From positions 62,001 through 126,000 of the forward strand of contig CAJXUD010000008.1 of the NCBI GenBank assembly GCA_913061415.1: DNA of 64,000 nt, written 5' to 3'. Under the pieces are notes generated by a model. It did not search any database, was not told where the DNA came from, and saw nothing but the letters and a program-made list of their open reading frames with translations. The position numbers and the translations under genes are program-made. This stretch comes from an uncultured Oleispira sp. (GTDB lineage: Bacteria; Pseudomonadota; Gammaproteobacteria; Pseudomonadales; Oceanobacteraceae). Below are positions 13,457 to 16,498 of the stretch, piece after piece. The first letter of the stretch is position 1, and every line of letters starts with the position of its first letter.

Positions 13457-14290
13457 TTAGCCCTTATCTTTGTCTTCTGCTTTGTCTTTATCGACGACTT
13501 TTCCTTCAGCTGATTCCACAGCCTCAACGCCGTTAGCAGCCTTTGTTTTGCGCTGAACTGCAGCCAAAATACCGCGCATCATGCCAACTTCCATCTTATC
13601 TAACGCAGTTCTTTGGAACATGCGACGTAAGCGAGTCATTAACTGTTTAGGAGTATTGGGGTCAAGGAAGCCAATATCAACCAGTGAGTCTTTAAGATGA
13701 TCAAAGAAACGCTCAACATCACCATGAGGTGCCATCTCATAATCCCACTCAACACCCCACTGCCCTACCTTACTCTGCAAAGGTTCTTCAGCATCATTTT
13801 GCTCTAAAGCAGCAAGACGCATTTCATAGCACAATACCTGCACGGCAGCGGCTATATTTAAAGAGCTGAAATCTGGATTTGTCGGAATATGTACGTGCGC
13901 ATTACAACGATGCAATTCATCATTAGTCAAACCACGAGACTCGCGGCCAAAAACCAACGCAACACTATTATTATTCGAAACCGCCTGCTTCGCTTTTGCA
14001 GCGCATTCACGCGGCGAGCATAATGGCCACGGAATATGACGACCACGAGCACTGGTTCCAATAACCAAACCACACTCAGCAACCGCTTCTTCTAAGGAAG
14101 AAACCGTGATGCAGCTATCTAAAATTTCTGAGGCGCCCGAGGCACGCACAATGGCATCACCATCAATTTCTGCAATGGGATCCACTAATACCAGCTGAAC
14201 TACTCCCATATTTTTCATCGCACGGGCCGCAGCACCGATATTGCCTGAATGGGTAGTATTTACTAAAACGATTCTAATCTGATCTAACAT
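13457..14290 (-). CDS. trmJ: tRNA (cytidine/uridine-2'-O-)-methyltransferase TrmJ
   Basis: TrmJ is a SPOUT-class enzyme that 2'-O-methylates residue 32 in several tRNAs. The 277-residue protein begins with the SPOUT substrate motif IVLVNTTHSGNIGAAARAMKNMG. It contains the knot motifs LVFGRESRGLTNDEL and IPTNPDFSSLNIAAAVQVLCYE. A C-terminal tail beyond the usual roughly 250 residues ends in DKDKAEDKDKG, encoded by an imperfect 15-bp repeat. It is divergent from suhB, as in E. coli and Pseudomonas, and heads the cysE-iscR-iscS run. Confidence 0.94.
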   Translation of the reverse strand: MLDQIRIVLVNTTHSGNIGAAARAMKNMGVVQLVLVDPIAEIDGDAIVRASGASEILDSCITVSSLEEAVAECGLVIGTSARGRHIPWPLCSPRECAAKAKQAVSNNNSVALVFGRESRGLTNDELHRCNAHVHIPTNPDFSSLNIAAAVQVLCYEMRLAALEQNDAEEPLQSKVGQWGVEWDYEMAPHGDVERFFDHLKDSLVDIGFLDPNTPKQLMTRLRRMFQRTALDKMEVGMMRGILAAVQRKTKAANGVEAVESAEGKVVDKDKAEDKDKG

Positions 14291-14479: not shown

Positions 14480-14488
14480 TGTTATACT
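14480..14488 (+). promoter_or_regulatory. predicted extended -10 promoter of suhB
   Basis: TG at 14480-14481 followed by one base and TATACT at 14483-14488 forms an extended -10 element. The expected -35 position is only a T-run, which extended -10 promoters tolerate. The suhB start is 37 nt downstream. Confidence 0.5.
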
Positions 14489-14524: not shown

Positions 14525-15307
14525 ATGCAACCGCTTGTAAACCTTGCGCTGCGTGCTGCACGTAATGCAGGACAAGACCTGGTCCGTAGCTTGGACCGTT
14601 TCGATCCCTACCAGAGTAGCGATCAGGAAAAATCAAAATTTGTAGCTGACTGCGCCATCGGCCTTGAAAAGAGCATTATTTTTGAGCTCAAGAATGCCTG
14701 CCCAGAAGATAGCTATCTTGGCCGTGAAACTGGCTTTCACAGCCCAGCTGAAGGTACTCCTAGAAATCAATGGCAAGTATGTGTCATCGACGACTTGGTT
14801 AACTTTCGCGTAGGCCTACCTGATTTCGCAATCATCGTTAGCTGCCTAGTCAACGGCAAAACTGAGCACACGGTTGTTATCAACCCTATGAATGGTGACG
14901 AATTTAGTGCTAGCCGTGGCCGTGGCGCCCAGCTAAACAATCGTCGTCTTCGTTGTGGTCAACTGCGTGAAATCAACCAAGCATTAATCGGCTTTAAAAC
15001 GCCAAATCATACTGAAGGTGAGCGCGCTTTTGAAAATCGCAAAAAAATCACCAGCCTTATGAATCAAGCCAATGACGTTCGTGCTTTAGGTAGCAGCGTA
15101 TTAATGATGGCTTATACCGCTGCTGATCGCCTAAACGGTGCAATGCTTTGCGATATGGACGAGTTCTCATTGAATGCTGGCAGCTTAATTGCTCACGAAG
15201 CAGGCTGCTTAACAGCCAATCTATCAGGCGAGCCTTTAATTAAAGCGCCAGCTGATATTTTAGTGGCTAATCCACGCTTATTAAAAGAGCTTATCCAGAA
15301 GGTTTAA
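14525..15307 (+). CDS. suhB: SuhB homologue lacking inositol monophosphatase active-site residues
   Basis: SuhB proteins are Mg-dependent inositol monophosphatases; in E. coli SuhB also joins the NusA/B/E/G rRNA antitermination complex independently of catalysis. The 260-residue protein keeps family length, the N-terminus QPLVNLALRAARNAG, the central SASRGRGAQLNNRRLR and the ending ILVANPRLLKELI. It sits opposite trmJ like the true orthologue. The signature DPLDGTTNF is reduced to DDLVNF (residues 89-94), a three-residue shortening that removes the second Asp and GT. The GEE motif is GRET (66-69). The late WDxAAG is FSLNAG (214-219), losing the metal Asp. The early V-D metal position reads C-A. 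The frame is intact, so this looks like a retained pseudoenzyme rather than a pseudogene. A terminator follows. Confidence 0.85.
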   Translation: MQPLVNLALRAARNAGQDLVRSLDRFDPYQSSDQEKSKFVADCAIGLEKSIIFELKNACPEDSYLGRETGFHSPAEGTPRNQWQVCVIDDLVNFRVGLPDFAIIVSCLVNGKTEHTVVINPMNGDEFSASRGRGAQLNNRRLRCGQLREINQALIGFKTPNHTEGERAFENRKKITSLMNQANDVRALGSSVLMMAYTAADRLNGAMLCDMDEFSLNAGSLIAHEAGCLTANLSGEPLIKAPADILVANPRLLKELIQKV

Positions 15308-15364: not shown

Positions 15365-15420
15365 AAGCCCCTTGATGCTGGCTATACTTAACGTATAACC
15401 AGTGTGAAGGGGCTTTTTTT
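15365..15420 (+). terminator. long Rho-independent terminator of suhB
   Basis: AAGCCCCTT (15365-15373) pairs with 15407-15415, and CTGGCTATAC (15378-15387) pairs with 15393-15402 with one mismatch, around loop TTAAC. A seven-base T-tract ends at 15420. The upper stem also contains TATACT and TATAAC boxes that could act as a -10 for the region that follows, so this element may serve two purposes. Confidence 0.85.
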
Positions 15421-15757: not shown

Positions 15758-16249
15758 TTAACCACGAACAACCGAAACATCTTCAGCTTGTGGTCCTTTC
15801 TGGCCGCGTACAACCATAAACTTAACACGCTGTCCTTCTGTCAAAGAACGATGACCCTGGCCACGAATCGAACGGAAGTGAACAAAAACATCTTCACCGT
15901 CATCCCATGTAATAAAGCCAAAACCTTTTTTAACATTAAACCACTTAACCATGCCACGCTCACGACCATCATCAACGTCACTTTCTACTACAGTACCGCT
16001 TGAACGGCTACGGCGACGATGTGCAGGAACGGCTAAAGCTGATGCAAAAGCAATAGCAAAAAAGATCAACGCCACGATTGTATAAATAGCACCAACGTTA
16101 GGCAGAGTTGAAAGACTCTCTCCTAGCGTACTACCTGATGTTAAAACAATGCCTGCTAATACTTTGTTTAAAGCCAATTTCAAAATAAACGGAGCAATCA
16201 GTGCAAGCACCAAACTCACTAGAATTTTTCTAATCATAATACCTTTCAT
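15758..16249 (-). CDS. membrane-anchored cold-shock-domain protein
   Basis: With the start at 16249 (MKGIMIRKI, preceded by GAGAGAAAAGT) the protein has 163 residues. Two hydrophobic helices (about 9-30 and 53-75) are followed by a short basic/Ser linker (RRRSRSS) and a complete cold-shock domain (about 97-163). The domain carries both nucleic-acid-binding motifs, KGFGFI and VFVHF. CspA-type proteins are normally soluble and about 70 residues long; here the single-strand nucleic-acid-binding fold is tethered to the inner membrane, most simply facing the cytoplasm. A longer frame to 16318 exists but lacks a ribosome-binding site. It is monocistronic with its own terminator and divergent from slyX over 249 bp. 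Target unknown. Confidence 0.85.
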
Positions 16250-16498
16250 ACTTTTCTCTCTTTCGATGCAAATTTTTGTCTGTTTTTCTTTTACCCGAGA
16301 CCAAATAAAAGTACCCAAGTACAGCTATGAAAGCCTAATTCTTTACAAAAATCAACACGATAGAAAAGCAAACGACTTGCATCGTGATTATTAATTCATT
16401 TTGATCAATTAACGTACAAAAATTACATTAATTAGACGGTATCGCTTTACCCAAACCTGATAGCCTGTAACAATCCCAAAAAATTGATTGAGATACTC

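Follow-up and report, generated by a model that had tools for sequence, protein, structure and literature searches.

The window analyzed here is a 64,000-nucleotide stretch of the genome of an uncultured Oleispira species. Within it, suhB lies as a single open frame of 260 amino acids, divergent from trmJ, the same order as in Escherichia coli (Table 1). The original prediction, made from the letters of the DNA, placed an intact suhB opposite trmJ and furnished it with a promoter and a terminator. Position and frame are as described, and the frames of relatives are also intact. The terminator is likewise present: about 60 nt past the suhB stop codon, a hairpin (-31.6 kcal/mol, z -8.2) is followed by a T run. 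The promoter stands in part. Specifically, a -10-like TATACT hexamer occurs here and in all six genomes of the genus that were read, and E. coli suhB has it in its leader too, but a consensus promoter scan lists no promoter upstream of suhB on the + strand. Beyond the terminator, positions 15758-16318 (- strand) encode a small protein in which hydrophobic stretches and a cold-shock-like domain can be read by eye.

Table 1. Features of the suhB locus in the window (positions are those of the window; residues are those of the window protein unless marked E. coli).
Feature	Position	Strand	Basis
suhB, SuhB pseudoenzyme, 260 aa	14525..15307	+	translation, family matches, alignment, model and fold matches
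trmJ, divergent neighbor marking the suhB locus	13457..14290	-	
TATACT, -10-like hexamer	14483..14488	+	by eye
boxA GTTCTTTAAGA, suhB leader, 13 nt before the start codon	14501..14511	+	exact match to consensus GYTCTTTAANA
Codons C43-A44 (E. coli V43-D44), metal/catalytic Asp lost	14651..14656	+	alignment
Codon R67 (E. coli metal ligand E67)	14723..14725	+	alignment; Arg in 33/33 family sequences
Codon C86 (E. coli metal ligand D84)	14780..14782	+	alignment
Codon D89 (E. coli metal ligand D87, retained)	14789..14791	+	alignment
Codon S215 (E. coli metal ligand D212)	15167..15169	+	alignment
K254-I257 codons, matching the NusA-AR2 contact pair K251/L254 of E. coli; Lys retained, Leu replaced by Ile	15284..15295	+	alignment
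Intrinsic terminator hairpin, then T run	15365..15415	+	

The window gene is a true suhB orthologue. Its protein scores 93.8 bits against Pfam Inositol_P (PF00459; cut-off 27), which places it in the fold family, and the PDB sequences closest to it are entries named Nus factor SuhB. Its top NCBIfam model is PRK10757 (inositol-1-monophosphatase), at 136.2 bits versus a curated cut-off of 332; by that score, the protein falls outside the equivalog. It shares 30% identity with E. coli SuhB; for two canonical relatives the figure is 32-33%.

Six active-site residues were scored, in E. coli numbering: D44, E67, D84, D87, T89, and D212, the established metal and catalytic residues of the inositol monophosphatase (IMPase) family. 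In the alignment with E. coli SuhB, the window protein keeps one of the six, D87, and thus lacks the catalytic IMPase residue set. The other five are changed: D44 to Ala, E67 to Arg, D84 to Cys, T89 to Leu, and D212 to Ser. E. coli D84-P-L-D87-G-T-T-N-F aligns with C86-V-I-D89-D90-L-V-N-F, with G88 becoming Asp and no indel within these motifs. GRET at residues 66-69, FSLNAG at 214-219, and the early C43-A44 site, all named in the original prediction, are present in the translation. The prediction further held that DPLDGTTNF had become DDLVNF (89-94). The residues are right, but nothing has been deleted: the first Asp of DDLVNF is D87 in place, and the D84 position is Cys86. Similarly, its claim that the active site has been lost is correct for D44, E67, D84, T89, and D212, but one of the three metal aspartates, D87, stays. 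E68 is kept, and D90 adjoins the retained D89. Sequencing error as the cause of the changes is ruled out, because independent assemblies from the genus and the family carry the same ones. Judged by these residues, the window SuhB would be unable to act as a two-metal inositol monophosphatase and is predicted to be inactive; residual metal binding via the retained D87 is possible.

The family search covered 55 genomes, including the window's own, and 54 gave a match. The window's family, f1 (34 genomes, with Oleispira, Thalassolituus, Oleibacter, and Bacterioplanes among the named relatives), supplied 33 SuhB sequences, every one divergent from trmJ. Position 67 is Arg in all 33. Position 84 is Cys in 29 and Ser or Asn in four, position 87 is Asp in 29 and Glu in four, and D44, D84, T89, and D212 occur in none. 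In addition, 62 window positions are invariant across the 33 sequences, among them G66-R67-E68-T69-G70, a new GRETG motif. In one f1 genome (G027), no SuhB was found at the trmJ locus, and the sole match is an IMPase paralogue. The degenerate SuhB is fixed in f1 as far as sampled; the loss of catalytic residues that had been assigned to "this lineage" is indeed there, but it is family-wide and older than stated. We note that the cysteines C43, C86, C107, and C228 of the window protein are kept in 28 or 29 of the 29 f1 sequences outside genus g4; C86 occupies a former metal-ligand position, and C43 is beside one.

Degenerate SuhB extends beyond this family. A search with E. coli SuhB across 293 genomes of the order, belonging to 43 families as counted from the table, gave a match at E 1e-20 or better in 288. 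SuhB was extracted from 45 genomes, mostly those with weak best matches. Ten families possess the degenerate form: f1, f6, f7, f15, f20, f26, f36, f37, part of f38, and part of f43. The 54 degenerate sequences read keep zero to three of the six residues (one in 34, two in 12, none in seven, three in one), and all 54 genes are divergent from trmJ. Canonical SuhB (n = 21) was read in f2, f4, f5, f8-f14, f16-f19, f21, f22, f35, and other genera of f38 and f43, with 16 genes divergent from trmJ, one on the same strand, and four without trmJ in the stretch; families in which no sequence was read are called canonical solely by high search scores. One f15 locus away from trmJ (L072) was dropped from all counts, and L073 ends at a contig end. 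In two f15 genomes (L177, L178), the gene in the suhB position at the trmJ locus is down to 209 aa and strongly diverged; one of these genomes (G047) encodes a canonical IMPase elsewhere, L072.

In a maximum-likelihood tree of NusA (64 tips), genomes with degenerate SuhB fall into four clades, and the parsimony count is likewise four changes; one tip, G070, is labeled canonical from its search score alone, and its match has one internal stop. Both the f43 loss (support 99, 100) and the f38/g79 loss (91, 95, 100) sit inside groups of canonical relatives. The nodes that split family f36 from the large clade containing f1 are weak (56-72 and lower), and support at the base of that large clade is 45-49, with f1 grouping with f6 at 89. 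Of the losses, three can be regarded as safe; four is the best estimate, and the true number may be higher.

The original prediction proposed modeling the metal site. An AlphaFold2 (AF2) model of the window protein (pLDDT 89.8, pTM 0.89; 20 sequences) has the SuhB fold. With an alignment of 12 close sequences, pLDDT was 53.8, and it rose to 89.8 on addition of eight distant rows, which are canonical IMPases, toward whose fold the model may lean. Fold matches include Pseudomonas aeruginosa SuhB (Z 35.4), E. coli SuhB (2qfl, Z 34.6), and human IMPase 1 (Z ~31). Against 6tqn_T, the SuhB chain solved within the rrn antitermination complex, the model scores Z 34.0 (rmsd 1.7, 249 aligned).

The NusA interface was scored at a single contact pair, K251/L254. 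According to PMC6614801, the KL251/254AA substitution in E. coli SuhB weakens binding to NusA-AR2 >1000-fold, from a Kd of 94 nM to one of 141 μM. Of 55 degenerate sequences, 46 keep K251, the window's among them, as do 20 of 21 canonical ones, the remaining one of which ends at a contig end. The nine degenerate sequences in which K251 is missing or changed include all three from f38/g79 and all three from f15. A partner is available: in all 55 genomes, the alignment with E. coli NusA reaches at least position 491 of 495 (1-491 in the window genome), and the window genome thus encodes a NusA with the C-terminal AR2 repeat. In f38/g79, NusA (L215, L216) is strongly diverged, at 41-51% identity to E. 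coli, and SuhB (L180, L181) is degenerate and without K251. It is possible that this NusA-SuhB pair is co-diverging.

The suhB leader carries a further link to the Nus machinery. PMC5725501 gives GYTCTTTAANA as the gamma-proteobacterial boxA consensus and describes a boxA site by which the Nus complex represses translation of E. coli suhB. The window leader contains an exact match (Table 1). Outside genus g4, 28 of 29 f1 leaders have the core GYTCTTTAA and 21 of 29 the full consensus; the core is expected in 0.03 of 29 after mononucleotide shuffling, with the proviso that the leaders are related. The core was found in none of the four g4 leaders and, among the other families read, in none except f36, where all eight leaders carry it. 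Because boxA is absent in g4 and, among the other nine degenerate families, present only in f36, autoregulation is not tied to the degenerate state. The 16S leader of the window genome, read directly, carries GTTCTTTAAAA 192 nt before the 16S start. A genome search with GCTCTTTAACA gave four matches versus three for a reversed control and was set aside. The sole 16S rRNA match in the assembly (G000:C2:14-914) is truncated at a contig end. By analogy with E. coli suhB, the window gene is probably still repressed through the Nus complex. If so, the Nus-factor feedback signal appears intact where SuhB, to judge from its residues, cannot be a normal phosphatase.

We consider it very probable that the window gene encodes a SuhB pseudoenzyme maintained as a structural Nus factor. 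The notion is that the SuhB dimer would bind the NusA AR2 domain and help to hold boxA RNA, itself bound by NusB/NusE, on the elongating RNA polymerase while rRNA is being made. The repeated loss of the site in relatives suggests that evolution keeps SuhB for making rRNA, not for its chemistry. Retention for a role at RNA polymerase was the core of the original prediction, and intact frames, low dN/dS, the lack of a second PF00459 gene in the window genome, the SuhB fold, boxA, the contact lysine, and recurrence all point to such a role.

How might the fold persist once its metals are gone? In 30 of 55 degenerate sequences, E67 has become Arg: in f1, f26, f36, and f43, in one of five from f37, and in one of eleven from f6, there beside an insertion. 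By its distribution, the change arose in at least two, probably three, separate losses. An acid remains at position 84 or 87 in all 30 sequences with Arg67 versus 15 of 25 without it (Fisher p 1e-4; the sequences are related, and the figure describes a pattern rather than providing a test). We suggest that the guanidinium of Arg67 stands in for a magnesium ion as internal cement, and that R67 probably pairs with the one remaining acid, D89. The emptied metal pocket would thereby have been rebuilt instead of being left to decay.

The conservation of pocket residues in f1 (R67 in 33/33; C43, C86, and D89 in 29/29 outside g4; C228 in 28/29) could also signal a new function, in which the protein lost its phosphatase chemistry and acquired a different activity or ligand, either in addition to the Nus role or in its place. 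The replacement residues, however, vary between degenerate families, so no single new activity covers all of the losses, and the immediate neighbor genes point to no substrate; we judge this option unlikely. A special form of it, in which the former magnesium pocket would be a Cys/Arg-lined site (C43, C86, R67, D89, C228) holding a thiophilic metal or responding to redox state, is a long shot. Were it true, SuhB in f1 would make rRNA antitermination responsive to metal or redox state.

Equally hard to credit is the idea that phosphatase activity persists through a rearranged metal site built from D89, D90, E68, and further acids close by. The retained D87 (window D89), the adjacent D90, and the kept E68 speak for it. 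However, none of D84, D212, E67, and D44 survives, and a conserved Arg has taken the place of one of them in the metal site; the model has a normal IMPase fold and offers no reason to place the missing acids elsewhere; and a separate IMPase copy was read in 16 family genomes, 15 of them with an intact DPIDGT.

These 16 f1 paralogues (L074-L089) bear on a second question, whether another IMPase accompanies the degenerate SuhB. The exception to DPIDGT is L074 (genome G006), which has APIDGT; by its sequence, this is possibly another loss beginning. Outside the window's genus, 25 of 28 f1 genomes have a second match. The original prediction had suggested looking for a second IMPase in the window genome, and a PF00459 search of that genome (99.5% complete) found no member besides this suhB. 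Two congeneric genomes (G003, G004) also have the degenerate gene alone, two (G001, G005) have a second member, and in one (G002) the second match is sub-threshold; two of the six genus assemblies are 71% and 81% complete. A scenario in which a catalytic paralogue took over and freed SuhB to degenerate was considered and found weak: a second match of at least 93 bits is present in 27 of 40 degenerate genomes and lacking in 13 of 40, and the three of six genomes in the genus with only the degenerate gene count against it. The PF00459 search of the window genome likewise found no CysQ. With no CysQ or other PF00459 member, 3'-phosphoadenosine-5'-phosphate must be removed by a protein of another family, unless its removal is missing altogether.

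Strong purifying selection acts on suhB, which is not a dying gene. Among the six congeneric genomes, suhB dN/dS is 0.026-0.051 (10 of 15 pairs computable, five being lost to Ns). Neighboring trmJ, used as the yardstick in place of catalytic SuhB, gives 0.036-0.094 (nine of 15 pairs, with synonymous sites near saturation), so that suhB is mostly lower. Relaxed selection or frameshifts in close relatives, named in the original prediction as counterevidence, are not what these intact frames and ratios display. To compare positions, we tabulated 59 sites at least 90% conserved in the 21 canonical sequences and computed family-weighted retention over 51 degenerate sequences; three truncated or atypical ones (L177, L178, L182) were dropped, and f1 entered the table with 12 of its 33 read sequences and the K251 and Arg counts with 13. 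Retention is lowest at T89 (0.01), D38 (0.03), E67 (0.04), and V40, E68, and D44 (0.11 each), followed by D84 (0.27), D212 (0.30), and D87 (0.39). It is complete at P3, W81, R139, R141, E222, and G224, and it is 0.83 at K251. That the active site was lost under relaxed selection en route to a pseudogene, as the low identity to E. coli SuhB (30%) and to two canonical relatives (32-33%) and the shrinkage of the f15 trmJ-locus copy to 209 aa in two of three genomes might hint, is barely credible, and the dN/dS of 0.026-0.051 and the 62 positions invariant in f1, the new GRETG motif among them, already largely refute it; the lack of internal stops in the 33 f1 sequences read also speaks against it.

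The preferred reading, a pseudoenzyme kept as a structural Nus factor, can be set against known systems. Like E. coli SuhB, the window protein has a trmJ-adjoining locus, the fold (2qfl, Z 34.6), a leader boxA with the GTTCTTTAA core, and the NusA-AR2 lysine; unlike it, the window protein has one of the six active-site residues rather than all six. Among solved relatives, P. aeruginosa SuhB (8wdq, 8wip, 9j90) comes nearest to it in both fold and sequence (Z 35.4, 32% identity). In contrast to the window protein, 8wdq holds inositol-1-phosphate, according to the entry title, and the 9j90 sequence keeps DPLDGTTNF. The f1 IMPase paralogues belong to the same superfamily as the window SuhB but differ in that 15 of 16 keep DPIDGT, none has trmJ in its stretch, and none is present in the window genome.

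That E. coli SuhB can dispense with its phosphatase activity was already known (PMC6614801, PMC4807359): the activity has been demonstrated (PMC4807359), and the effects of a suhB mutant strain can be relieved without it (PMC6614801). Among the matches listed in our literature search, the titles and opening lines of abstracts contain no report of a naturally inactive SuhB or of its recurrent loss. New here, beside the non-catalytic role known before in E. coli, are a probable natural SuhB pseudoenzyme as a Nus factor and the recurrent loss. The E. coli evidence for phosphatase-independent SuhB comes from mutants (PMC6614801); the losses described here add several natural cases, in which the phosphatase site is gone while the fold and, mostly, the NusA-contact lysine persist. 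Alignment of degenerate with canonical sequences separates the positions serving chemistry from those serving other roles, for which R139, R141, E222, and K251 are candidates. The repeated change of a metal-binding Glu to Arg offers a simple rule for how a metalloenzyme fold may survive metal loss. For annotation, homology alone does not justify naming the genes at the trmJ locus of these families inositol monophosphatases.

Finally, the search was widened to a sample of the class, in which 228 of 232 genomes gave a match at E 1e-20 or better. Thirteen weak genomes were followed up, with 26 loci, of which 15 were read (L237-L251). L237, beside trmJ, is canonical. Outside the order, L239 and L240, with trmJ, are partly altered. 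L246 and L247 are degenerate copies with trmJ in the same stretch, and L238 and L242 are degenerate with trmJ not in view. Degenerate SuhB-like copies are present in a few other gamma-proteobacterial families.
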